From assembly GCF_002234675.1 (NCBI RefSeq), contig NC_019880.2:15737756-15801755 (forward strand): 64,000 bases of DNA. The letters are read 5' to 3'. Below the pieces are notes generated by a model, which was given only the letters and a program-made list of their open reading frames with translations, ran no database searches and was not told the DNA's origin. This document shows positions 1 through 50,488 of this stretch, in pieces. Both the position numbers and the translations under genes were made by a program. The DNA is from Oryzias latipes. Lineage: Eukaryota; Chordata; Actinopteri; Beloniformes; Adrianichthyidae. Positions within the stretch are counted from its first letter, which is position 1. Every line of letters begins with the position of its first letter.

Positions 1-641
1 CACTAAACTTTGTTCCTGTATATTATTGTTGACTGTGGCGCTCCATGTATGCTTTACCTGCCAGCATCTTACACCCTGCAGTTACGTGCTGGATTGTTTC
101 AGGCTCTTTGCACAGCCTACACCTTGGGTCTTGTCTGGTGTGGTAGATCTGAGCCTCTATCGCTCTGGTGCTCAAGGCTTGTTCCTGAGCTGCTAGGATG
201 AGTGCATCAGTGCTGTCCTGTAGGCCAGCCTTTTCTAGACATTGGTAGGATGTCTTGATATCAGCCACTTCAGTTATGGTCCGGTGGTACATCCCATGCA
301 GGGGTTTGTTCTCCCATGAGGACAAACACTGCATCCTCTGATATCCATTGCCTGAGACATTCACTGAGCACACTGTCAGTTGGGGCCTTGAGCTTGATGG
401 ACTCATGAATCTTGGATGTTTCATCCTGTATAGTTGCTTTTACGCTCACTAGTCCTCGGCCTTCTTCCTTGCGACTAGCATACAGTCTCAGGGTGCTGGA
501 TTTGGGATGGAACCCTCCATGCATGGTGAGGAGCTTTTGTGTTTTAACATCCTTGGTCTGTATATCTTCCTCTGGCCATCTTATTATTCCTACAGGGTAT
601 CTGATAACTGGCAGTGCGTAGCTGTTTATTGCCTTATTTTT

Positions 642-713
642 TTTTTTTTTTAACTTGTCCTGTCCAACAGCTGGGCAGGCAGATGAGAGCTGGGGGCCTC
701 TTGTGTTATTGTG
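642..713 (-). mobile_element. Nested 72-bp 5'-truncated retroposon with poly-A tail
   Basis: A 72-bp insertion interrupts the reverse transcriptase gene. It is flanked by a perfect 16-bp direct repeat, TTATTGCCTTATTTTT, at 626-641 and 714-729. Read on the minus strand the insert ends in a run of about ten A, so it looks like a short 5'-truncated, poly-A-tailed retroposon. Removing the insert and one repeat restores the polymerase reading frame across the junction (QLNGKNKAINSYALPVI), which confirms the insertion. Confidence 0.85.
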
Positions 714-1236
714 TTATTGCCTTATTTTTGCCGTTGAGCTGGCTTCTCGGGACTTGCCTTACTCGTTGGAGGTATTTAGCTGTTGCAGCTTTCCTTGTTG
801 CCTGCTCCAGGTTGCCATTTCCCTGCGGAATTCCAAGGTACTTGTAACTGTCCTCAAGTTCTGCTATTGTTCCTTCTGGGAGTGAGATCCCTCCTGCGTG
901 GACTACTTTGCCTATCTTTTTCACCATCTGGCTGCATTTCTCAAGCCTAAATGACATCCCAATGTCAGTACTGTAGATCGTGGTGGTGTGGATCAGGGAG
1001 TCAATGTCACGCTCACTCTTAGCATTTAGCTTGATGTCATCCATGTAGAGGTTGATGTTGGCCCCATTTCTGAGTCGGTTTCCATAGCCAGTCTTGTTGA
1101 TTATTTGGCTGAGGGGGTTCAGACCTAAGCAGAACAGCAGTGGGGACAGAGTATCAGCTTGGTATATCCAACATTTGATGGACACTTGTGCAAGTGGTTT
1201 GCCATTGGCTTCAAGGGTGGTTTTGCACAGCTTCAT
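706..1236 (-). pseudogene. Reverse transcriptase palm fragment with YMDD motif
   Basis: This is the longest single-frame stretch of the retrotransposon polymerase (176 codons, minus strand). It contains LSPLLFCLGLNPLSQII (palm motif B region, with P-L-L-F-C), YMDDIKLNAKS (motif C with both catalytic aspartates), RLEKCSQM (motif D region) and YKYLGIPQ (motif E region). It is interrupted at the low-coordinate end by an 88-bp disruption at 642-729, caused by a nested retroposon and its target duplication. No start codon context suggests expression. Confidence 0.85.
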
Positions 1237-2072
1237 TGAGTTTCCTATGAAGGCTCTTGGAGTCCTGTTGATGTTTTACAGCTCCAAGCATTCAGTGCTC
1301 CACGTGTGTGGCATTGAGTCATAAGGTTTCTTGTAATCAATCCAGGCTGTGCACAGGTTGGTGTGTCGTGACCTGCAGTCTTGAGCAACTGTTCTGTCAA
1401 CCAGGAGTTGCTGTTTGGCTCCTCTGGAGTCTCTACCAATGCCCCTATGTGTGTTGCTCATGTATTGATCCATGTGCCTATTTATCTTGGATGCAATGAT
1501 GTCTGACATGAGCTTCCATGTTGTGGAGAGACAGGTTATTGGCCGGTAGTTGGATGGGACTGCACCCTTTGAGGGATCCTTCTAGATCAGGATCGTTCGC
1601 CCTTCCGTTAGCCATTCGGGGTGAGTCCCATCTCTTAGCAGCTGGTTCATTTGTGCTGCCAGGCGCTCGTGGAGTGCGGTGAGTTTCTTTAGCCAGTAGG
1701 CATGTATCATGTGGTGTTGTATCATGTGGTGCTGTATCACCGGTGCTGTCCAGTTCTTCATACCTGAGACTCTTTCTTGGATGTCTGCCACTGTGATGGT
1801 TACTGGATTCTGTTCAGGGAGGTGGGATTACTTGAGTTGTAGCATTCACCTTGTTCTCACATCTAGTCCATTTCTTCGTCTTGTTCTAGTGGCCCACCTT
1901 CTATCAGGGTGCTCTGGTTACCCAGCACCTGATGCAGACCTTGTTTGGCCGGGCGACGTCTGAGCCGGCATGACATGTGGTTCATTGTCTCTCATTTTGT
2001 GAGGTAGGCAGTCTTGCCCAAGGACCCTCACTGGGTGTTGTTAATTGCTTACCATTGTTATGGTAATTGGGC

Positions 2073-20500: not shown

Positions 20501-23500
20501 CGTATCGCACATTCACACACTGATGCACTGGCGCAAACCTTGCCCTTGAAAACTTCACCATATGGGTGTGCAAGGTGGGAATCGAACCTCCCGATAATAG
20601 GTTGACCAGCCTACCACTGCACCACAGCCACCATAATTATGATTATGCCGATTTAAACAAAAACAACATAGTTGTTTCTGCAGAGTGGAATAGGTACATC
20701 AGCCCCCCTCCCCGTTGTCTGCTAGTGGATGCATCGGAATGGAGAGGAGCAGAGAGCTTGTGGCCATCCCACCTCATCTTCATCACAAATATGCGCTTCT
20801 TTGTATGGTATTTTCTCATCTGCACCTGATGCACAACAAATTGATTAGAGAAATACTCAGGAATGTCATTTGAATCTTAATTTTCTTCATATATATCAGA
20901 AATTCCATAAGAACACGTTAAAACCATTATTTTCATCGGAGTGGCTCTGTAGACCAGTGTGCTTATAGAAAAGATTTGACAATGAACTTGCAAATGTACT
21001 ATTTTTCTACAAACTGCATCCCCTCTTGCTTGCTTAGTGGAGTTTCTGATTGGTTACCAGGGAAAACGGCGTTTCTATGCTACCGCAGAGCACGCAGCCG
21101 CAGCTGCAGCCGCAGCCGCTCTGATGATGTCAAGTCTTTGTTGCTTTTGTTCTCTGGTTCTTATCACCAGACGTGAGACACCAGAAGCCTTTTAGACTTG
21201 TTAAATCGACATGAGCTTCTTCAAACTCAAAGGACGGCTCACACAAAAGAAAATAGTTCTATATTTACAGGGTTTTTTTTAGGCTCTTGAAAGATGAACT
21301 CATTTAATCGACCACATTAACAACCTTACTTTCTAATGAGCTTAAATGAGCTGTTGATTTATTTATTTCTTTGTTTTTTTGTCCAATATTGTAGTCACTT
21401 TTACTTCAGCTGTTCCAGCTTCCATCAGGGTCACCAAGAATTCATTGCGAGTGAGTCCGATTCCATTTGAGCTTTTATAGTCCTTTAATAAAAAATGACA
21501 GAGAGGGGAGCACTGGGACAAACATGCTCACATCAAATGGAAAAACAAAGAGAAACTGCTGTAAAAGAGCGTTACATAAGCCTGGAGCCTCGTTTCAGAG
21601 ACAGGAGGCTTGTGCAGTTCAGTGGGATGCCCTCCGCTTCGTCTTTAATTATGCATATTGTTGAATTCAGATAGAAAATTCCAGCAAGCTGCAGAGACTG
21701 GATGACTTTTTTCAGCTTTCTGTAATAGTGTTTGAAAGCTTTCGCTCCTTCCTTCTGCAGAGGAACGTCGCCACAGTGAAGAATCGGACGAGTCCACAGA
21801 AGCAAACCAGAGGAAAAAGAGGAGGCGAAAAAGGAAGCGGCATGCAGCAAACCCTCCCGGTTCTGGGAAAGAAGGCGCCGTTCCATGCGGCGAATCCAGC
21901 GCGGGTCAGGTGCCTGCGCAAAGAGGCGAATGCACGAGCAAGAACAGGAAGAGAAAGCTGAAGAAGAAACGGCACAAGGAGAAGCTGAAGTCCACGGGTC
22001 AGATGCCGCGGGCCGCTGCTCTGGAGTTCACCTTCCAACAAGTTGAGGAGGAGGAGGAGGAGGAGGAGGACAAAAGAAGAACTGTGGATCTGTTAGAGTT
22101 TTTAAGGAAAACAGCAGAAATCTATCTGTCTGATCGTAAGTATTCGCCAGGCCGGGGCTGCACTTAACACATAGATTTCATCATAAAACTTAAGAAAAAA
22201 GTTGTTAAATTCCTTATTTTTTTTGTCATTGTTTTTCATGACGGACCGGAACTGTTCTGCAAAAAAAAAAAACTGTAATTAATAAAAATCCTGAACTTGT
22301 GACACTAAATCAAATCAATGGAGGAATTTGTCAGTTGCCACCCAGTCCAAAAGGTTTTTGTCTGTGTAAAATACTCCTTCCCTCTTGTTGTGCTCCAGCT
22401 TCCCAGCAGAGAGAGCAGCTCCTTCATCTGTCAGCGTCTGTAGATGAGCTGGTTGACAGTATAGCATGTGGGTCGAAGGCCAGCTCTGCCGTGAAGCAGC
22501 TGTTCTGTCTGAAAACCTTTGCTGAGCAGAATAAGACCCAAAATCTCCAGAACGCTCTGAAGGAACTCAGCAACGACTCCATCCTGACCGCAGGTGAGTC
22601 GGACATCAGAAGATGTTTTCAAAGAAGGAAGACTTTTATTTTGGTATAAAAAAAAATGGTGTAACTTCTACTCTGTACCATACTTCTCTCTTTATGTTGA
22701 AACTTGCTTTAAACTTTGTTTTTATCGGTTAGCAGCCATTTCTGTCTGCGGGTTTCTGCCTTCCACCCTGTAGCCTTGTTGGGATTTTTACATTTCTGGA
22801 AGGAGATGGCACTAAAAATGGCGCCTCTCCTCTTTCCACGCTCGTGACGAGCTTTAAGGAAACCATACGATTATTCCGATGCATTTAAAAATTTCATGGT
22901 GAAATTTCTCCATATTTGTGATTTTTATTTTCCCAAACCACTTGATTTTAAAGTCCTTCTCCAATCATCTTTTGATCTATCGTGAAAGCATTTTCAGTGC
23001 CCTTTTTTCATGATTATGACGTTTTTAGCAAAAACGTGTTGTTTTCTAAGACGTAGTTTCTGCAGAGCGGCTGTAGTTCATTAAAAAGTCACTTCTGAGT
23101 TGTGGACGGGACTCTTTTTCTTATTTCCCATCATCCCTTTGTTTACACTCTCTCTTGCTAGCTTACAGCCCCTCACAACCCTAAGCTAACATTAGTGGTG
23201 CAACAAAAATGGCGACCAGCGTTGGAGCTATCCAGCCGTACAGGTTTGATCCAGATTCCCGCTCAGACGAGAAAAACAAAAATTAATATGGATCTTCGAC
23301 AGAAGATTTAGAAATTCTTGCGCCCGTCTTGTTTGTTGATTTAAATAACTCAAATATGTTTTCAGATTACATTTTTGTTGTCTAGGCAACAGTTTTACTG
23401 CTGAATCGTGATGCAGATGTGTCAAGTTTGGACATATTTATTTAAGAAATCCTCAAAGTTGTCTGCAGAAGTTTGTTTGATTTAACATTTGAAGCATTTT

Positions 23501-24539: not shown

Positions 24540-26167
24540 TCAGCCTTCTGAGAATAGGGACATACCAGGATTTCTGCTCCTGAATGCTAATATTTTGACA
24601 TTTAAACTCCAAGTTAAGTTAATTATTCAATTATCTGAAGTCCCTCTCTCTTCAAATCTAGTCTTGCTTTACTTTATTCCCTTTTAGCGCTTCAACTCAC
24701 TCCACTGTTTATAGGATCTCTTCTTTATATCCATTCACGCCTAAAATAGCTTCAAACCGTAACCTCCCGTTACATCATCACAACTCCTCATTGGCTAACT
24801 GGATGCCTAATATGGCAAAATGTCCTTAATAGCAACACAGATAGTTGTTGATGGACATTCAGAACCACCTGTGGAGTTTGGACTGTCTGCAGCTTAGAGA
24901 AGCTATCTTAAAGCAATTGTCTGAAGCTTTTGGCCAGGAGATGAGTTCAGGAAGAGGGCAAAGAATTATCTCAGCTGGGTGGTGGCATTTAATGACCTGA
25001 GGAAGAGCTGACTGTTGTTTACCAACTCAAGAGAAACTGCTGTTGGAGAAATAGGACAGCAGCTGACAGAACAGCTAGCCTCCAAAGGTCTTTGTAAGTG
25101 AATAAACACTTATCTGTGACCCACATTTATGAAGCTTCAGAACACAAACTTTAAATATGAAGATCATAGAGAGTGGATTATATAGATTATACTTAAATAT
25201 TCAGCTCATGGTCACAAAGAAGGAGAGAACCTCTCTCCGTTTTGACGACATTTGAGCTCACATTGAAAGAGATTTTGTACTTCAAATTAGAAACTTCAGG
25301 CTTTGAAGAAATGTCCACATTAAATGACTGTCCTGCTCTAACAATACATTGAAAAATCTTAACCATCCACTCTTCCCACTTGAGGCGTGTGATCAAATAA
25401 ACGTTGACATTAGTAGTGTGTAATGACCTCAACTGGAGGGGCATGTAAAAGTGACCCTAACGGCAAACTTTTCAAAGCCTGCTGCAGTCATTTGGATTTA
25501 AAGACCCACTCCCATTGTGTTTTTAACATGTTCTTGTGGCATTTTTCTGATGAAAGAGGACATAAAGAAAGTTACGTCTTTCTTAAAACGGAGTGAATTA
25601 AGAGCAGGCAAAAAAAAAGAGAGTTTGTGATGTAGAGGATATGCTGGACAACTGTTCTAATGCGTCTACACTCAAGGATTAATTGTTGGTTGAACATAAG
25701 ATTATGGAAAGTATCTCCATCTAAGTCGAATGTGTTTATACAGCAATAAACTTTTGTATCGGGAGATTTGAATGCAGTTATGTTGGTGCAACAATATTTT
25801 TTATGTTGCTGTAACATGATGATCAAGGTACAGTTTAACTAGATTTGTGTAAGTTATGGTATCAAAGTTTGATATGATGACATAATCTTGTTGAGTGGTC
25901 CAAACTCAAATTATAATGTTAGATATTGCATAATTTTATAGAGTACTTCTCAAACGTAAAATTTAAGGAGTTCATGCTCATTCATGGAAGCAAAGTTAAT
26001 TTAGATCAGTTATAGTGAACGCCGGTTTTATATTTTAGTCAAAAATCAGAAAGCGGTTATCATCCACTCCCTTCTCCTCACTCATGGTACTAAAAGAAAA
26101 AACAAAACAGGATAAAATAAAAGAGTAAAACAGCCAGACAACAAAACCCAAAGATAAAAATGCACAC
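24540..26167. other. Intergenic DNA between erich1 and the 27-30 kb ORFs
   Basis: No gene recognised. It contains a partial copy (25498-about 25600, TTAAAGACCCACTCCCATTG) of the TIR family seen at 44717 and 47638. Confidence 0.6.
25498..25600 (-). mobile_element. Partial copy of the TTAAAGTCCCACTCC TIR family
   Basis: TTAAAGACCCACTCCCATTG followed by ACATGTTCTTGTGGCATTTT matches the start of the copies at 44717 and 47638. The rest is lost. Confidence 0.65.
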
Positions 26168-26351
26168 TTAACCCTTATTATTCCTTAACCCATGTTATTC
26201 CTACCATGACAAAGGTGGAAAGATTTCATGTAATCCATGGACACCAGTGAAGATCACAAATCATTGAAGAAAAAAGGTTCAGAGCACTGTCTAGTGGGTC
26301 TAGATGACCCAACTCCCAATGTTAAAGTGCCTAGGATAGCACAACGGTTAC
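26168..26351 (-). mobile_element. piggyBac-like MITE, copy 1
   Basis: Bounded by TTAACCCTT and AACGGTTA. The interior (GGAAAGATTTCATGTAATCC, GGACACCAGTGAAGATCACA, CAGAGCACTGTCTAGTGGGT) is the reverse complement of the copy at 29873-30073. The CCCTTGTGCT-type ends next to TTAA suggest TTAA-targeting piggyBac-type mobilisation. Confidence 0.75.
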
Positions 26352-26539
26352 ACATCAATCCGCCCAGACAGACAAAGGTAATGGCATCCCACAATTCCTT
26401 GCAATGCCAGATTTGTCAGCAGGCCCAAAGTGCTTGTGACCTTCACTACAATACTTACTGATATTCAGTCATTTCAGTCAGACAACTCATGCAGTAGTAA
26501 TAATATTTATTTTTCACATCTTTTAGTTTTCTTTCACAT

Positions 26540-29607: not shown

Positions 29608-30836
29608 ATGTTTTTCAGACTCCCACGGCTGACTCCTGGATATATCAGGCTGCTGCAGGTCAGTAGGAGGCTGTGATAGCTGTGACAGCTCTTGTCTTTG
29701 TCATTAATTGTTCGAATTTAAAGAAAGGCTATGTTTTAACACCAATTTTTGAATTCACCAAATGCTAACAATACTCAAATTTCCTTCTTAAATATTCTTT
29801 TTTAACTCTTTCAAACAGAAAAAACATACATTTACGTTTTTTTGCTTTCATTTACCAAATGCCTTGTATGTAACCCTTGTGCTAGGCATTTTAACATTGG
29901 GAGTTGGGTCAAATAGACCCACTAGACAGTGCTCTGAACCTTTTTTCTTTAATGATTTGTGGTCTTCACTGGTGTCCATGGATTACATGAAATCTTTCCA
30001 CCTTTATCCACCTTTGTCATGGTAGGAATAACACGTCAATGTAAGGGTGGGGTCATCTAAGACAGCACAAGGGTTAAGATGACAGAACCTCCAAGCGCAA
30101 AGTGGATGATCTAATGATCAGAGTTTGTTGCATGTGCTTCACAGATATAGTTTTATGCACATGCTCAGATTTATCAGCATAAATCTTTTATCAAGTCCTG
30201 CTTTTCAGTCTGTTGTTTTGATAAATGTTGTGACAAGTTGGTTAAATACAGGACAGACTGGCAACCAGGAGGCGTTACCAGCCATCTGGGGCAGTAAAAT
30301 GGTAAAACAGCTCAACTGTGATTGTCCATTGGTTTGTAAGTGGCTGAATGGGTCACACACGCTTGATTAGAAACTATAAAGTCTCCATTTGCTCATTAAT
30401 GCACTTCCCAATAAACTAAGTTTGCCATGATGTAGGTTAGACTAGCTTTTGCAATGTTGAATGGGTTTTCAATCTTTCCAGAGTGTGTGGGAGGACTTTG
30501 ATGTGGGCGGAGCTTGTGCCTAAGACTATTTTGCTCTCCTTTCAGACCCAGGCCTACCACAACACGCCTGTGACAGCTCCGCCTGAGAAGACCATGCCCG
30601 GTGTGGCCATGCTGCTGGGGGCTGTCGGGATCGGGATGTGCGGGTACAGCTCCAGACAGCTGTCCCTCCACCACCGGCCCTCCACCCGCGTCCTCCACTG
30701 GGTCGGCACCCACACTGATGCGAGCAGCATGGGTGTGGGTGCTCACCGGGCCCCTGCTCTGGATGTCCCTCGCAGAGTCCCTGCATGTGCCGACATCCCT
30801 CCACCGTCCTTTGTAGGACAGAAAATTCCTTCAAAT
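29608..30836 (+). CDS. Candidate small two-exon protein with presequence-like N-terminus and one hydrophobic segment
   Basis: Proposed exons are 29608-29658 (MFFRLPRLTPGYIRLLQ, donor CAG/GTCAGT) and 30546-30836 (acceptor CTCCTTTCAG). They join in phase 0 to 114 aa ending at TAA 30837-30839. The N-terminus is Arg-rich, hydrophobic and free of acidic residues, like a mitochondrial presequence. A hydrophobic stretch GVAMLLGAVGIGMCGY follows TAPPEKTMP. The second exon is GC-rich against an AT-rich background. After the hydrophobic segment the reading frame is uncertain: another frame (30601-30816) contains WVWVLTGPLLWMSLAES, so a frameshift or pseudogene state is possible. I do not recognise the family. 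The intron holds a piggyBac-like MITE. Confidence 0.4.
29873..30073 (+). mobile_element. piggyBac-like MITE, copy 2
   Basis: Ends CCCTTGTGCTAGGC and, at the right, GACAGCACAAGGG (TIR CCCTTGTGCT). It is followed by TTAA at 30074-30077 and preceded by GTAA, a decayed TTAA. The interior is the reverse complement of copy 1 at 26168-26351, including GGTGTCCATGGATTACATGA. Confidence 0.82.
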
Positions 30837-31056: not shown

Positions 31057-31531
31057 AAGCTACGTTCACACCGCCCTCGGGGAAACGCTTTCAAGCGGCC
31101 ACTTCTAAAGAAAATACATAAAAATGCCATTTGGGCTTCAGCGTTCAAAACCAATGCGTTCACACATTGCTATGCTCAACGCAGAGCCATTGAACGCAGG
31201 TTGAAAGATAAACCAGGTTGAACTTTGACAAATCAGGGACTCAGGATTTGGCAAAAAAGATGAGGTCCATTTAATTCACGGAAGTGTCAACAGTTTAAAA
31301 AATTGATCATTTGTGTCCTTTCATATATTGGAATAGAACTGTGAAAGAAAAAGCCTGGAGCAAGATTTGCACTACTTTCCAACTATAGGTGTCAGGCATG
31401 CGCTAGTAAATAGTAGAATAATTTTAAGAAGAAGCCCCTCCCTGATTATCCATTGTGAACCCCATGTGCTAAATTCATGTTCAAGAATGCACGTTTGAAT
31501 GCGGGTCACATGACCGGTGTGAACGTAGCTT
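31057..31531. mobile_element. 475-bp TIR element (AAGCTACGTTCACACCG)
   Basis: A perfect 17-bp inverted repeat: AAGCTACGTTCACACCG at the left and CGGTGTGAACGTAGCTT at the right. The interior has short palindromic CAACGCAGAGCCATTGAACG-like blocks and no coding capacity. A diverged inverted copy lies at about 39680-39935. Confidence 0.85.
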
Positions 31532-34340: not shown

Positions 34341-34772
34341 GCACATGGCAAAGATGAATTACTTTATTATTATGTAAAAATAACTATCTTAGAAATCAAC
34401 TTGGCAAGTGCAGATCAGTTATCCAAAATATATGCAGATTATGTTACTTATAAAAGTCATTTATATAATTAAAAAATAATACTATATCGGTAAAATAGAC
34501 GTAACACTGTTTCAAAAATCTTCATAGCAATAAATGCTCAAGTATCAAAGTTAAAATATGTGCAAAATTACATTACGAAAAATCATGAATCATGATTTTT
34601 CAATTTTTGGAGGAAGTGAAGTAATATCATTAGAAATCAATCAATTCAACCATTTGCAATAATCGATTCAGCATTTTTTAAATTTATTTTTCATTTTTTA
34701 TAATAAGGTAATGCTGTGAAATAAAATACAATAAAAAGGGGTCCATATTCTGTCGAATTACCAATATAGGAT

Positions 34773-35320
<548 letters not shown>

Positions 35321-37987: not shown

Positions 37988-40900
37988 ATGGGCAACTTTT
38001 CAAGCAAGGACAACCACGGACCTGTAGGTAAGTGAGCAGCACACCCACATCATCCTGAGTAGTATTCATTTAGAGTCATTTCTGCTGAAATCCAGTGTAA
38101 CTAGTTTTTTTTTAGAACAAAGTTTGGGTCTTTCTGTTTTGAGGTAAGTTCTTTACCGCTGCATCCGAATAGTCAAGAGAGTGAAATCCAACCCAGGAGT
38201 AAAGGAGTAATTGTGAAACTGAAAGCAACACAGGAGAAATCAGCTGGTGTGTGTGTGTGGCTGCAGGAGTCTTGGCATCCCTCCTCAGTGACTGGTCATT
38301 CTCCTCGCGTCCCTGTGCGAGCTGTTCTTGGCCCCGCCTGGCCAGCTGTGATGAATCGGCAGAATTCCCCAGCTGAGTACAAGGGCAGCAGATTAATCAT
38401 ACGAAGCAGTCTGACACACACTCGCAGAGGCCATATAGACACACACATACTTATTCTTTCTGGTTAAGTTTATTGGCCACCCATGCAGATCTCTGGAAGA
38501 ACACTTGGGGGTTTGGAGTGGAGAAAAGTGGGGGAAAGAGTAAGGAATAGCATTCGAGCAAGAGGAAGAGTTCGTTTTTTAGGGCCTTGAAGCGAGTGAT
38601 GCATCGTTCTGTCATGTTCGACTGTTGCTCAAACATCACTCATAAGAAATTATGAAAAAAAAAAAAAGAGCTTCAGGGATTTTGACCAAACAAGGAAACG
38701 AAAAGAAGGAGACAACATTCCCATTGGTTCCTTGATGTTTAAAATTATTGCTGGTGCCACACTGTGGTAGGTGGGGGTGGGGGGGGGGGGGGGTGTTAAG
38801 CCCAAAAGGTATAAATCAGTTGTGTAACTTTGTTATTATTTTAGAAATTTAACACATATATTCATGCAGCTTAGTTGAATTATCTGCCTGGACTTGGGAA
38901 AGAAATGTTGGAGGAACACAATGGATGAGCAGTTCAGGAGGAATGTCTGTATGACGGCATTCATCTTCAGAGGCCTGGACGGTCAGATGGTCAGTGTAAT
39001 TCTGGCCGCCCCACGGCATGGTGTGGTTAGTGAGAACACACCAGACTGCTGAGGCCAGAACGTTGTGCTTCACTGTGTTTACCCATCGGTTTACAGTCTC
39101 TCTTTGAGGCTCACTCAAACAGGACATTTCAGTTGAGTTGTGTTGTTTGCCTTCAAATATGTCTTTTTTGTGTGTGTGTGTGTGTGCTCCTCATCACAAA
39201 AGGATGCTCGATAACATCTGCACAGCATCACTGTTGATAAATATTAAAAAGATAATCATCGGCAGTTTAGTTTTACCAGCATAGTTCTGCTTTGTCCATG
39301 CAGCCCAATGGCTGGGATTCAGTGAGCGCGCCTGTACCAGAGTTCAATGTGTTGGCCATGTGGGCGTCTTTGGAAATGTCAAAGACAGACAATGCTTGTA
39401 AACAGAAGAGACTTACTGGGCTGCATGATGTGAGGACAACTTGTGATGTGCGATTTCAGTGTTCAATATTGCAATGAGGATATTAGTTGCGATACCTAAA
39501 CAAATAGAATGTTGTTTACACCCGATACTATGCCTTGGTGTGAAATGTAAAAAAGCGGTGCAAATGTTGCACCCTGCTTTTTCTTTCCCAGCTCTTTTCC
39601 AAAATATGAAAAACTTTGTGTCATAAATCTGGAATCGCAATTGTAAATCTTTCCTCCATGATCAATCGTCAAATGGATGGCATTTCCATAAATTAAAGTG
39701 GTCGCCATCCATCCGTCAAATCCAAGTCCCTGATTGGTCAAAGATCAACTTGATTTAATTTTCAACGCACGTTTGATGGATGTGCGTTTAATACGTATGT
39801 CCTGAAAACAGTTGTGGAAACTATCAAAACTATGAATGTGAAAGTTTTCAACGTGGAAGCCAGCATTTACACAGACGTTTTATTGGAAGTGGTCTCTTGT
39901 ACGCATGATTCCTTGAGGCGGTGTGGACATATAAATGCTGAAGCTGAAGTATGAGGTTGGGTTTTCTGATGGAACTATGAACAAAGAAGGAAAATAAATG
40001 AATTTAAAGGCAAAGTTCAAGATGTACATAGTGCCGGTCCTTTGACCATCACTGTTTACACTTTCTCACAACATTTTCTAATATTTTTTCTTGATGTGCT
40101 TCTTTGGAATTACGGAATTACTTGGGAATACTCTGCCTCTTTTACGTTTTGCCTTTCTGAGAATTTAACCTTAATACACTGTGGTGAATAGCACCAGGGT
40201 TCACTTGCAAAGACCCTGTGGTGAATAGTTGAACCAGGGTTGTTTTTTTTTTTTGGACCAATCAACACCTGCTAATGGAAAGGGACTGATTGAGGACAGA
40301 CAGGCGATCTCCTAATTCCGTCACTACTCTCTTACCTCTAAAAGACTATGTGGTGGCTTGGATCTTAACTCAATTCAGACAAGTACTACTTGGAAAAAAA
40401 ATGGATGCCAATTATGAATTTGGTCCATTTTCCAAAGTAAAAAACGAATAGATATAGACATTTTACGAAGACTGTTTATGAATCCACTGTGATCTGTTGA
40501 TGAAAACTTAGATGTTTTTTACAAAAGTAAATTTAAATACATTGTTTTTCAAATGAAAAGTCATTCAATGCATTGCGGTCAATATTCGCCAATCTAGTGA
40601 GCATCAATGCAAACAGGCTTTTGCTTGAGGGATATTTCCAGGGAACTGGATTTTGGAATAGTAGATTCAGACACGCCAACTAAAGGGTTAATGCACTATA
40701 TAGTAGTGAGTAAATGAGGGAACTCAGACAAGATTAATTTATATTTCTGTTGTTCCCTTTTTGTGAACATTGCTTTAATACACATGTAGGGGTAGAAAAT
40801 AATTAAGAAATGATTAAAAACCATTTTTGGTTTAACGCATTTCTTTCGTCTGCAGGCTCCCATCTGGAGAACTTCCACACACCACCTTCTTCTCCGCTGA

Positions 40901-43900: not shown

Positions 43901-46900
43901 GAGCATCTTCTGTAAGATAGTGTTGACAGTTATAGCTCCCTTTGAAAGTAAAGTAGATTGGATCTCATAGTAGGAAAGCACCTAATAAGGGAAGACTTGA
44001 AAGACAAATCTCTTCCTCGAGCTGCAGTAAAAAGAGATTCCTCTCTGCAGCTTTTATGTTGCATAAGACGGTAGAAGCTGAATAAAATTCAGCCCTCTTC
44101 TTCTTGACTCTCCTTATTCTTCAGAATATGATACAGTATTTGGTCATTTCCTGTTGGTCGTCCTGTTCGTGACACTCCCTTATGAGGGTTGTTGCTGGAG
44201 GCTCCCAGTTTCCTTTGTGTCTGTCATAGATTACAGCAGCTGGAACAACCCAAACCAAAAGGCCTCCTTTTCCATCTGCAGGTTTTTTACAGTCCTCACT
44301 TTGGAATTGTTTTAGAGTCCGCTTTCTGGCAAATCTGAACATTTTTTCATACTTTTCCTCATCCATTCCATGCCCTTATAAGGTGCACAGAAATTTAATC
44401 CTAGATGCAGGTCAGCTAACCTCAGAGAGACTGTGGCAAGGCCCTCTGTTATGGAAATAGGAGCAATTCAACACCGTGTTTACATGGGCTCTCAGTAGGG
44501 CGATATGAGCTAGTGAAGCTGGACGTAATGAGCCCTCTTGGTCTGTTCTGCCATTCCAAATCTGTGTTTGTAGAGAATGGAATTGCAGAATGGAGGTGGG
44601 GGTTCATATTCAGCTGTTCAGGACACAAAACCTGTTTTGTGTTGTGCTGTGCGATAAGGCGGTGTGGGCTGGAGGCTGCGACTTTACTGATTCGCCAAGA
44701 GTTTTTGTGGCACTTTTAAAGACCCACTCCGATAAAAATCCCATTATTGCTGTTTGACACGTTCTTGTGGCATGTTCTCATCATGGAGAACATATATTTA
44801 GGAATTTAAGCTAAAAATAGCATTTCTGAGTTTTTCTTTATTCAGAATGTTGTGAATCAGGAGAGGACGGAAGAAATTCCTACACCAACAGTCCCCCCCA
44901 CAACTTAGAATTGAATTTCTAGTAAACTACTGCCGCTCTGCAGAAACTATGTTTTAGAAAACAACACAGTTTTTTCTTATTTTGGCTAAAAAAAGAAAAC
45001 CCGACATATTCATATTTTTAACTTTTAAAATAGATCAGAAGATGATTGGAGTGGGACTTTAAGACTTGTAAACAGATGCAAAATCTTCCCCTTTTTTTCT
45101 TTTTGCCTGGTTCCCCAGCTTTCGTTGTAAAACATTTCCCCTCTTTTAGCATAGAAACAGTTATTAACCTTCCTCTTTCTTTAGCCTTTTCTCCGTTTGT
45201 CTGCTTCTACTTGGTTCGTCATCCTTTCATTTGTGGACACTTTGTTTCACTTTTCGGATCTGACCCTGTGTTTTCTCTGTTTGTGTAAATAAAGTTACCA
45301 TGACCTCTAAAGACACTCCGATCATCTTTTAAGCTCTTTTTAAGACCAGTCGAAAGAAGTACATGGATCTATTTGTCTACAAGTGGATGCATCAGAATGG
45401 AGCAGAGCAGGGAGCTTGTGGCTTGCCGTAGTAACCTCTATGTCACTCCTTTAAGCTTTTTATATCCGCATTTTTGCCTTTGAGACTGATTCAAAACTAC
45501 TTAAATAAAGAAATACTCAGAATTGCAATTCTGAGTGTAATTTTCTTTATATATGTCCTCCATCATAAGAAAAATGCTACAAGAACATGTCAGAAATCAC
45601 AAAAACATGATTTTCATAGGAATGCGTCTCATTCCTTTACCTTTTTCTTATCTGATGCCTTCTGTTTTTGCAAAAGTCTGCAACTTCCTCCATGTTCACT
45701 CAGCATCTGTCTGTGCTTACGTGCTTGACCAGCCTTCAGCTTCTTAAGTCAGAGAAAACAGTCCAATTGGAGCAGAGGGGAGTTGTTGGTGTGTGTGTGT
45801 GTGTGTGTGTGGGGCTGGTCAGATTTGGGCTCCCGACCATTGATTTCAAAGCCCTGCCTTAAAATCAGATCCAGGTGACTGCCTCATGAGTCTCTCTCTG
45901 GCCCGGGTTCTTCTTGCTACACTAACTTTCCTCAGAGAGAGCTTGTATCTGGATGTCACACAGGCTAGTTACATGTCCAAAGAAGACTTACTGTAGTTTG
46001 GAAGGATCGGCGCTAGATTGCACGCTGTTGAGTTTTCGTGTGCTAGTTCTTGTGAATCTAATTTCCAACCTCTAAATAGGAACCTTGCGTGCTCTCTAAC
46101 TAATTTTGCCGTGTCACATGAGGATTTTCTGACTTGAGTGGCTGCTAAGGTCAGAACAAAGCGTGTCTTGCTGGGTCTAGCAGTACATTCTCACACTTTT
46201 TCAGCACAGACTACAGACTGTAAAAAAGTGAAGGCCTGTTGTAGAGTTGGGATGTTTCCCTTGACTATAGTGCGAGTGGGTGTGGAGGTAAACTTGGGAC
46301 AAACGCTTGGAAAAGACTTTTTCTAGTATTTCTAAACGTTCCCAGGAATTCTTAGGATTTGGGAGTAAAGAAAGTTTTGCGCCTGTCGAGGCTCAATGCT
46401 GCAGCTGGTCCTGCAGAGAGGCGTGAGGTCAAACGCCAAGGGACTGAGTGTGTGTAGAAGGAAAAAAAAAGACAATCCACGCCCTTATCTCATCGTTAAC
46501 CAAGGAGTGCCCCTTCCTGTTTTCCTGAGCTAACGCGCTCCAGTTGGAGTGTCAACATCCAGATAAGAAAGACACCAAGAAAACAACTTCCTGCCAGACC
46601 CCAATGGGTATTTTAGAGCCTTTTTATTCCATGTGGGTCAAACAGTCGGGAGCCACCGTTCATTTCATGTTGTCAGGCAGATCACAACAATGTGGTGCAA
46701 GAATCAAAGGGGGGGGTTGTGGGAGTGGAGGAAAGGAATATGAAATGTGTGTGTGTGTGTGTGTGTGTGTGCGTCCAGAGTAATCAGGTCCAGCTGCGGT
46801 CTTGAGTCACTGGTCAGATGAGGGAGCGACTTGGCGCAGACTTGTCCTCCTCCTCCTCCACATCTCTATCCATTCTTCATCTAATTACCAACATTTCCAG

Positions 46901-49900
46901 CCCCTCTGCTCCTCTGCATTCCATCCCAGCCTCTGACTTGCATTACTTGCAGCCTCTAGACTGTCTCCTTTCTGCCAATGTGTGATTTCATCCACTTTAA
47001 CACATTTACACTTTAAAAAAAAATATTTGCCTTTTTAATTTGAATAAATCTGTTTGTCTTTTAATATCTTTGGTTTGAGGGAACCCTTCTGATGTGTGGT
47101 GGGAATGTTTGCTCATGTCTGAAAACTAATATACCGAAAGACAAGCAAAAACATTTTTCCTCATGTGCAAAAGTATAAAAACAGATCATTAGCTCACAGG
47201 GCTACAGTTTCACCGAAGAGTTTCGCAATGTTTTCTTGGCCCGGCCTCAGAGTGTTGTTTTAATTGTTTTTTTCTTCCTTTTTCTCTGGATGCCTCCAAA
47301 CTTGTCTGGGTTTGGATTTTTTCCAAAAGAATTAGGAAATATAAAAGCATAAACCTATCAGAATTCATGATTCAGATATGATTTATTAGGGTTGATCTGC
47401 CAAGTGCGCTACGCCTAAGCATGTTTTAGGGTTTCAACTTAGGTTTGCTTCCTTTTTTATTCCCCCATTTCACATTAAGTAATGTTACCGTTGGCTAAAT
47501 GTACTTTAATTGTTTCAAACGAGGCAAAAAAAAATATTATTTTATTTATTTTTTTCATAAAAAGTCAATTATTTCTTAGATAAAAAAATCTAGTGTGATT
47601 TATGTAACTCAATAAAAATTGTTTTGCTATTGAACTTCTAAAGATCCACTCCAATGAAAATTGGGTTTTTGCTGTTCTTAATATGTTCTTGTGGCATTTG
47701 TCTCATGATGGAGGACATATATGAAGAAAATAAGCGTCAAATTGTATTTCTAAGTATTTCTTTATTCGAATTTTTAATGTACAAAAATCCTAGAAAACTA
47801 TGTTTTCTTCATTTTATCTTAAAATGTCATCATCATAATTAACACACTACTGGGAACACTTTTAAAATCGATTAAAAGACGATCGGAGTGTGGCTATAAT
47901 TGTTTTAATTTCTTATCCAGACGGAGCGTGAAGAATGGCTGCAGTTCCAAGCGGACCTCCAGGTGGCGGTGGCGGTGGCGGACCGTTTGAGAGCTGAGAT
48001 GGAGGAAGAGCTGGTTGCTCTCCGAAAAGCCCACAAAGACACAGAGAGGGAGCTGGCGGCTGCCCTGCAGAGGCAGAAGGAGGCTGACATGCAGCTGGTC
48101 TCCCTGCAAGGAGAGCTGAAGGAGAGCAGGCAAAGACTGACCATTTTGACCAGGGCCCCCGAGAAAGGTGAGGCCCGGGATCCGCATCAGACGCCAGACA
48201 GGTCCGGTGCAGAATCTAAGTCTGAACACAAAGACGGGAGTGAAAGAGGCAGGGGCATGGGAAGTAAAAGTCCAAGTGATGCCGGTGAAGGTGCAAGAAC
48301 GGATTGTAAAGGTGGGACTAAAGGGTATCTGAGAAATGTGACCAATGAGGACAGAGATGGGAAGGATGTGCAGCCCAGTGAGCCTCGAAGAGCTGTGACC
48401 TCAGAGAGGTCAAGGTGAGATTCAGTGTCTGCTATTGAAATTTCCTAAAGCTTTTTTGTGTTGTATTTGTCTGCCATTTTAGTCCTTAATGTTTATTCTT
48501 CATGGGCTATCTGTAGCTGTCCTTCAGCAGCTTACTCAGGGACGGTGTAATCATCACCTGCTTTGTCATCATTTTTTCTCTTTCTGCTGCAGAAGTCTGT
48601 CCAGATTACCTGCCTCCCCTGACTCCCCCACCACGCAGAATGGACCAACTCAACCCAAGGCTGCTTTAACACTTGAAGCCACCAAGGTGATATGCTTCCT
48701 TTTTAGGGGAGCTAACCCAGCCCTGTCACCATTCACCTCATTTAAACACGTTTGGTGCTTTATTTTTCAAGAACTTTGGACAGCAGAGAGCACGGAGAAG
48801 TTTGGATTGGCAGGACAGCCAGTTGAACAGCGATGCAGGTACGTGCAAAGCTGGGACGCAACATGTTTAGGCCTGAGATTATTCTGCATCTCAGAGACTT
48901 TGAAGTATTTTTGAGTAGTGGACAGACGTTTGTCCAGGTTGCCGTCTTTACTTAGTGCACTAAATAAGGCGTAACCCATTTTGTAAAGCACACCGAATCT
49001 ACAAGTGATTCCGTAATTTGAACTGTTTTTTTTTTGTTATTATTGACTTTAATTTTTTGTTTTTAGAAATTTTCAGATAAGACCAGCATTGAAAACACCA
49101 AATGAATATTTTGTATATAGTACAGAGTACATAAATGAAAATAGGTATGAGATATAAGAAAAACTCTTGAATAGATGAGACATGAAAAGAGGAATATATT
49201 GGCTTTTATCTATGTCAGCATTAAATTCTCTGTTTTTAACAAGCATCACATTATCGTCATATTGTGAAAAATGTTTTTATTTGTTCATTTTAGACACTTG
49301 TTTCATGTTTATGATCATTCTGACTTTATTTTGAATTATAATCGTATATAGTAAGACTATTCTACAAATTGTTTTCCTTTCAAGGTGATGCTAAATTTGG
49401 TGGAGTCGTGGATTTAGTGGTTCACTGCAGATTAGTATTATTTATATTTCCTCAATTTGATTGTTTTGATTCTGTTTTTTTCTCAATTTTAATTTTTGGA
49501 AACTGAGTAGAATAAAAAATGATAAAGAATGTTGTACCGTTGCTAACTATCAGATGGATCTTACTAAATGTTATTTTACAAAAATCAATGTTTTTTAAAT
49601 GTTGACAAAAGAAACGAGTGTTTTAAATGAGCTTCTTTGACTTTATAAAGAAATACAGATCTACAGATAATAGAAATAAACTATGAATGGCATCTCTAAC
49701 TGTTGCTTCACATTGCAGGAAAGCGTGAGGAGTCCCTGAATAAGCATAACTCGGCTCTCACTGAGCTGCCGCACACAAAGTGAGTTCTCACACGCACACT
49801 CTCCCGTTATAACAGTCAGGGTTCTGTCCAATCCATAGAAAAAAGGATTTTATACCCCATTAGTAATTGTCTTGCTGTTAGATCCCAGGATGGTCTGAGT

Positions 49901-50488
49901 GTCCTGCTGCGTCGTCACGGAGGCTCAAAGAGAAACTCTCTGCTCCGCTGGTGTCAGAACCGAACCCAGGGCTACAAGGTGACCGATCCTTTCATGTCAA
50001 ATACGTACACACATTTTTTGGAATGCAGTTTGGAGCAGCTCTCTAATGCAACAGCATGTCCTCCTCCTGCAGAACATTGACATCACTAATTTCAGCAGCA
50101 GCTGGGCAGACGGCCTGGCCTTCTGTGCCGTCTACCACACCTACGTCCCCTCTCACATCCCCTTCAGCACCCTCTCTCCAGAGAACAAGGTAGACGCACT
50201 GCATGCAGCCTGTGATGCAGACAAAAAAAAAAAAAAAAACCTCGCCTCACTAGCCTTTTGTTTGCAGAAAGAGAATCTCAGCCTGGCATTCAAGACCGGA
50301 GAGGGTGTGGGGATTACACAAACTCTGGTAAGAATCACAGGTGTCCAACACAAAAAGTGAGTTTCTTCACAAGTTTGACCGAAGTCTCTATTTGACAGAC
50401 AATAGAGGAGATGCTGCGAGCAGGTGGACCGGACTGGCAGAGGGTACTGAGCTACGTGGAGAGCATGTACCGCCACTTTGAGATGTGA
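37988..50488 (+). CDS. Short cytospin-family protein (SPECC1/SPECC1L-like) with C-terminal CH domain, 11 exons, 583 aa
   Basis: Exons: 37988-38027, 40856-41434, 41566-41618, 47921-48414, 48593-48686, 48772-48838, 49719-49779, 49882-49978, 50073-50189, 50268-50327, 50399-50488. The sum is 1752 nt in frame to TGA. Cytospins link actin and microtubules and act in cell adhesion and cytokinesis. Residues 1-14 read [14 protein letters not shown], an N-myristoylation-like start. About 15-207 is Ser/Pro-rich. About 225-290 contains [18 protein letters not shown], a family hallmark, then a Glu-rich coiled coil. The C-terminal ~110 residues form a calponin-homology domain ([52 protein letters not shown]). 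The long central coiled coils of vertebrate SPECC1 and SPECC1L are absent, so this is either a short paralogue or a short-isoform locus. Intron 2 needs a GC donor. Which paralogue it is cannot be decided here. Confidence 0.9.
38773..38794. repeat. Poly-G-rich tract in cytospin-like intron 1
   Basis: GGGGGTGGGG followed by a run of about 13 G. Confidence 0.9.
39414..39520. mobile_element. hAT-like terminus fragment in intron 1
   Basis: CTGGGCTGCATGATGTGAGG, then ACTTGTGATGTGCGAT and GTTGCGATACCTAAACAAAT, match the element at 27046. Confidence 0.5.
39680..39935. mobile_element. Diverged inverted copy of the 31057-31531 TIR element
   Basis: AAGTCCCTGATTGGTCAAAG, TTTTCAACGCACGTTTGATG and GAGGCGGTGTGGACAT match the reverse complement of the element at 31057 (GAGTCCCTGATTTGTCAAAG, CTTTCAACCTGCGTTCAATG, GAGGGCGGTGTGAACGT). 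Confidence 0.7.
42338..43291. mobile_element. 954-bp hAT element with perfect 14-bp TIR, in cytospin-like intron 3
   Basis: CAGGGGTGGCGAAC at the left is matched exactly by GTTCGCCACCCCTG at the right. The flanks CTCTAAAA and ATCTAAAA form an 8-bp target duplication with one difference. Subterminal AAAGAGCCGAAA / GCCGAGAGCCGA motifs are present. An (AAT)n tract (42419-42447) and a copy of another repeat (42450-42756) are nested inside. Confidence 0.9.
42450..42756 (+). repeat. Nested copy of the 6767-7035 type interspersed repeat
   Basis: Shares the CAATGCGCTTACAATG-like, CACTTTCACCCACCAGTGG-like, GTGAAGTGTCTTGCCCAGGG and CTGTTCTACCGCCTGAGCCA boxes. It lies inside the hAT element at 42338-43291. 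Confidence 0.6.
43741..43783. repeat. (GT)n microsatellite
   Basis: GTGTGTGTGTGTTTGTGTGTGTG within the cytospin-like intron 3. Similar (GT)n tracts lie at 45790-45811 and 46747-46771. Confidence 0.85.
44717..45062 (-). mobile_element. 346-bp copy of the TTAAAGTCCCACTCC TIR family
   Basis: The left end TTAAAGACCCACTCCGATAA pairs with the reverse complement of the right end, TTAAAGTCCCACTCCAATCA. The interior matches the copy at 22945 in reverse, with the coding part deleted. Confidence 0.8.
45306..45635 (+). mobile_element. 330-bp copy of the TTAAAGTCCCACTCC TIR family
   Basis: Starts TCTAAAGACACTCCGATCAT and ends ATTTTCATAGGAATGCGTCT. The internal GTGGATGCATCAGAATGGAG and ATATGTCCTCCATCATAAGA match other copies. 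Confidence 0.75.
47638..47899 (-). mobile_element. 262-bp copy of the TTAAAGTCCCACTCC TIR family, abutting cytospin-like exon 4
   Basis: Left CTAAAGATCCACTCCAATGA and right GATCGGAGTGTGGCTATAA. The interior has TATGTTCTTGTGGCATTTGT and ATGGAGGACATATATGAAG. It ends 21 bp before exon 4 (47921), so the branch-point region of this intron may come from the element. Confidence 0.8.

Follow-up and report, generated by a model that had tools for sequence, protein, structure and literature searches.

Copies of an inverted-repeat family in the window

The DNA analysed here is a 64,000-nt stretch of the Oryzias latipes genome (the window, to which all coordinates refer), and our subject is a family of short inverted-repeat elements within it. 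Self-comparison and a search with the copy at 22.9 kb recovered six related, decayed copies, labelled A to F. We consider it likely that they form an old, non-autonomous family of Kolobok-type DNA transposons, probably of the Kol0 lineage, and that copy B most likely carries the start of the Kol0 accessory gene KolX. The features are as follows, a hyphen separating the target site from the end of the element.

Copy A, 20639..20952, plus strand: right terminus CTAC-AG at 20952 (minus strand); left terminus unrecognisable, similarity beginning internally.
Copy B, 22948..23286, plus strand: left end TTAA-AG, followed by a left region of about 260 bp and an open reading frame (ORF).
ORF remnant of copy B, 23209..23286, plus strand: 25 codons, MATSVGAIQPYRFDPDSRSDEKNKN; probably the start of a KolX-like gene (P2X7 ballast-type), though unproven as such.
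Copy C, 25498..25601, minus strand: very short; right end TTAA-AG at 25498; tentative decayed left end TTAA-TT at 25601.
Copy D, 44716..45062, minus strand: 347 bp including both TTAA sites, from the right end at 44716 to the left end at 45062.
Copy E, 45307..45633, plus strand: decayed; left end CTAA-AG at 45307 (needing a 2-base gap in the repeat); right end AATG-AG at 45633.
Copy F, 47638..47899, minus strand: complete, decayed; right end CTAA-AG at 47638, left end TTAT-AG at 47899.

The 3' limit of copy B is the stop of its ORF and is not defined by alignment; with the right-arm profile described below, no right end in the right orientation was found before copy C. The idea that copy C supplies the right end lacking from B was rejected, because the right end of C is wrongly oriented. 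Copy D is the best preserved of the short copies, and copy E begins 245 bp past it.

Homology between the copies

Pairwise BLAST alignments connect all six copies. The left arms of B and D are 74% identical over 176 bp (E = 1.9e-22), D and F 78% over 143 bp (E = 2.3e-21), and E and F 80% over 121 bp (E = 1.6e-23). Copy A aligns with E (71% over 187 bp, E = 2.7e-14) and with F (80% over 61 bp, E = 3.7e-6), and copy C with the same two (84% over 58 bp, E = 2.0e-9, and 87% over 47 bp, E = 7.1e-9, respectively). To judge from these identities of 71 to 87% in the aligned parts, the copies are old. Copies A and E also have an internal segment in common (20715-20897 and 45373-45557, 71% identical), of which only the right-arm end, 20838-20897, aligns to F and no part aligns to B or D; the family therefore has at least two internal types.

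Arm profiles were built from eight arms of these same copies, so that their E-values are not independent of the alignments; they find all eight source arms with E-values of 9e-19 to 3e-51. The right-arm profile matches F (47638, plus), D (44716, plus), E (45629, minus, where the profile starts), A (20952, minus) and C (25498, plus), with E-values from 6e-38 to 9e-19, and the left-arm profile matches B (22948, plus), D (45062, minus) and F (47899, minus), from 3e-51 to 7e-29. The left-arm matches of E (E = 0.014) and A (E = 0.015), neither of which contributed to that profile, are weak.

A preliminary description of this DNA had claimed a family of terminal inverted repeats with at least six copies in the 64 kb, and the BLAST alignments and arm profiles bear this out with six copies. 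Its positions held in part: 20660 is internal to copy A, of which just one terminus can be recognised (20952, minus strand), and the copy placed at 22945 is real, with its start corrected to the TTAA at 22948. The 15-mer it gave for the ends is weak evidence by itself, having 6 matches with up to three mismatches against 1.96 expected, a number reached in 1 of 100 shuffles; the exact 15-mer is present once, at 45062-45048 on the minus strand. A second end pattern, written after the copies had been seen, gave seven matches (shuffle mean 1.01, largest 5 among 100), six of which are copy ends and one of which, at 38706, is not.

Termini and target site

The ends of the family read TTAA followed by AG(T/A)CCCACTCC, together with decayed forms of this sequence, and TTAAAGTCCCACTCC and TTAAAGACCCACTCC can serve as search strings for the family. 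In copy D, 12 of 14 bases match between the inner ends, AGACCCACTCCGAT and AGTCCCACTCCAAT, and TTAA flanks the copy on both sides, as expected of a Kolobok target site. Among inverted pairs bounded by TTAA and lying 60 to 800 bases apart, copy D is the only one in the window to reach at least 12 of 14, and none of 100 dinucleotide-shuffled windows held such a pair. A looser search at 11 of 14, run without a shuffle control, added three low-complexity pairs, none from the other copies.

Nine termini could be placed, the left of A and the right of B being missing and the tentative left end of C being left out of the count. AG adjoins the target site without a gap at eight of the nine, giving the RR...YY pattern (R, purine; Y, pyrimidine); at the left end of E, AG appears only with a 2-base gap, and the ungapped reading, AA, is also RR. 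TTAA is exact at four termini (left of B, right of C and both of D) and has one mismatch at two (CTAA at the right of F, TTAT at its left), while the left target site of E has one mismatch with the gap and three without. Such decayed target sites would fit old copies, yet do not prove a TTAA rule. Because TTAA is its own reverse complement, a duplication and a repeat are also indistinguishable within one copy. The TTAA sites and the AG...CT ends support the preliminary description's proposal that this is a DNA transposon whose target site is constant.

The reading frame of copy B

The ORF of copy B runs from an ATG at 23209 to a stop at 23286, opens with the motif MATSVGAIQPYRFDPD and sits behind the left arm in the start context AAAAATGG. 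The alignment of D to B stops at 23116, 93 bases 5' of this ATG, and no other copy aligns to the ORF, in agreement with the earlier statement that only this copy keeps an ORF. By its position, the frame is probably the start of KolX. We grade this reading as probable and not as firm because the peptide is negative in Pfam and its match to a KolX-like query is weak and not independent.

That query is a putative KolX-like sequence written after the finding had been read, which is why it lacks independence. It matches the Pfam family P2RX7_C (PF20478; E = 1.5e-20, query residues 24-158) and is therefore a fair query for the ballast domain, although its first residues were written with the finding in view. 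Its best match in the window is a 12-residue stretch of the ORF (tblastn E = 0.24, not significant). Among the matches listed for it, there is no credible ballast-domain remnant elsewhere in the window.

Probable assignment to Kolobok and alternative explanations

Kolobok elements are described as producing TTAA duplications and having 5'-RR and YY-3' termini (Kojima and Bao, 2022, PMC9587614), and for full-length Xenopus Kolobok elements AG ends are reported in 10 of 10 cases, with TTAA at all sites but one (PMC6004289). The Kol0 lineage (Kolobok-1_XT type, encoding a transposase plus KolX) has in common with the window family the TTAA target and the RR...YY (AG...CT) ends. Its accessory protein is of the P2X7-ballast type, according to the account in PMC9587614, and the gene start in the window is unproven as KolX; unlike that lineage, the window holds no transposase and no intact KolX. 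The T2-MITEs (miniature inverted-repeat transposable elements) and XKol elements of Xenopus, as presented in PMC6004289, likewise occupy TTAA sites and have AG ends, and the T2-MITEs are short and non-autonomous, as are the window copies. For the T2-MITEs that paper gives AGGRR as a terminal motif, and the AGTCCCACTCC end of the window family is absent from the ten pairs in Table 5 of that paper. Our preferred reading is that the copies are non-autonomous Kolobok elements with internal deletions or truncations.

Several observations weigh against the assignment to Kolobok with a KolX start. Neither a transposase, which in an autonomous Kolobok element would be of the DDD/E type with the C/DxxH motif, nor a full-length copy was seen in the window, only copy D passed the strict pair test, the right ends of A (CTAC, two mismatches) and E (AATG, four mismatches) lack TTAA, and the tentative left end of C has TT in place of the expected AG. 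For the ORF, the peptide is without a Pfam match in the first place, its length is unexceptional (634 frames of 25 or more codons begin with ATG in the window, both strands and nested ATGs counted), the query match is neither significant nor independent, and of the matches listed for that query, none to a ballast domain falls between the ORF and copy C. One alternative, which we hold to be unlikely but to deserve more weight than the one that follows, is that the short copies are genuine Kolobok-type elements and the frame at 23209 is not KolX but a chance frame, the start of a transposase or another gene. It gains from the missing family match, from the number of frames of such length in the window and from the merely presumptive resemblance to P2X7-like proteins. 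Against it stand the placement of the frame behind a left arm in the AAAAATGG context and its rank as the top match in the window to the KolX-like query, though that match is non-significant and non-independent.

Less probable still is that the copies are piggyBac-type MITEs in TTAA sites, mobilised by a piggyBac transposase in trans, with an ORF that is unrelated or derives from a KolX-carrying piggyBac element. The ends given for piggyBac are CC[C/T]T (PMC2872659); this motif was not found adjoining TTAA in the copies, where the ends read AG(T/A)CCCACTCC or decayed forms and AG is present ungapped at eight of nine termini. On the terminal motif, AG in place of CC[C/T]T, piggyBac membership was rejected.

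Proposed origin of the copies

If the copies are Kolobok elements, their ends would have been inserted into TTAA sites by cut-and-paste movement, with a full-length element elsewhere providing the Kolobok transposase in trans. Copy B would be a fragment of a longer element, in which the left end and some 260 bp of 5' region lead into the beginning of an accessory gene (KolX, most likely), and the short copies could have arisen by internal deletion. The copies other than B are without the accessory gene and retain parts of the arms only. The left arm of copy D matches 169 bp of B, after which the region leading to the ORF is absent from D. The view that the short copies are deletion derivatives thus stands for D, from which the ORF-bearing stretch is lost, and is presumed for the rest.

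Proposed relation to P2X7 and Nanor

KolX, which is encoded by the Kol0 lineage, is reported to resemble the C-terminal ballast domain of P2X7, with similarity to P2X7 residues 476-595, and the P2X7 gene is proposed to have originated when a P2X4-like gene and KolX fused (Kojima and Bao, 2022, PMC9587614). The same account treats Nanor as a likely domesticated KolX, so that Nanor and the P2X7 ballast domain would be domesticated relatives of it. Both are host genes that contain a ballast domain, whereas the window shows no more than a probable gene start, which precedes the place where such a domain would lie. Nanor-like genes are described as duplicated in most species having them and as lying outside conserved synteny (Rump et al., PMC7016195); the string 'transpos' does not occur in the main text of that article. 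The suggestion that multi-copy P2X7-like proteins are transposon genes is right in substance and, since Kojima and Bao link KolX to P2X7, was already published in its general form, as KolX of Kol0. The window copies are an ordinary instance of this published phenomenon.

For a broader proposition, that a teleost Kol0 family carries KolX first behind its left end, so that many multi-copy fish P2X7-like genes are its KolX and sortable by end sequence, we see the chances as evenly balanced. Should the gene start prove to be KolX, fish P2X7-like annotations could be sorted by the terminal-repeat sequence into genes of the transposon and genes of the host; as a general point, a likely origin of the P2X7 ballast domain from KolX is in print (PMC9587614). 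There may also be a bearing on P2X expansions elsewhere, for example in giant clams (PMC11700175), where an identity with KolX is speculative and the passages on these expansions do not contain the word 'Kolobok'.

Searches in other collections

No relative of the peptide was found in the viral and prokaryotic collections searched. Two left-end patterns and the right-arm pattern had no match in viral contigs, nor had the right-arm pattern in prokaryote genome contigs, and tblastn confirmed none of 92 pattern matches to a KolX-like protein in viral contigs. Four viral contigs contain a degenerate IQPYRF(D/E)P pattern, which we take as chance because three share one identical stretch in which two stops directly follow the motif, and the fourth has unrelated surroundings and a later stop. 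In the literature searched, neither the six spellings of the peptide motif nor the phrase 'P2X purinoceptor 7-like' was found. P2X7-like together with transposons led to a single paper, the one on giant clams, and Kolobok together with P2X7 to two, Kojima and Bao among them; of the papers listed for the term KolX, all but Kojima and Bao concern unrelated subjects, to judge by their titles.

Other features of the window

Copy F ends 21 bases 5' of a likely 3' splice site (CAG, with its G at 47920) that precedes a coiled-coil-like exon, which we presume, with the name unconfirmed, to be cytospin/SPECC1-like; an ORF with a CH domain follows at 49983-50360. The transposon end of copy F may supply the branch-point region. 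Scans of the window for tRNA genes and for Rfam families at the gathering score were negative. Positions 23-1275 (minus strand) hold reverse-transcriptase fragments (RVT_1, E = 4.4e-10; zf-RVT below the cut-off), probably a broken element of the non-LTR (long terminal repeat) type. An inverted pair at 26193-26352 and 29869-30033, about 160 bases long and 88% identical, belongs to some other repeat, and a further inverted repeat pair lies at 31178-31378 and 39552-39788, in two pieces of 73 and 83% identity. Between them, 34691-35163 is a long TA-type simple repeat with IYIYIY frames on both strands.
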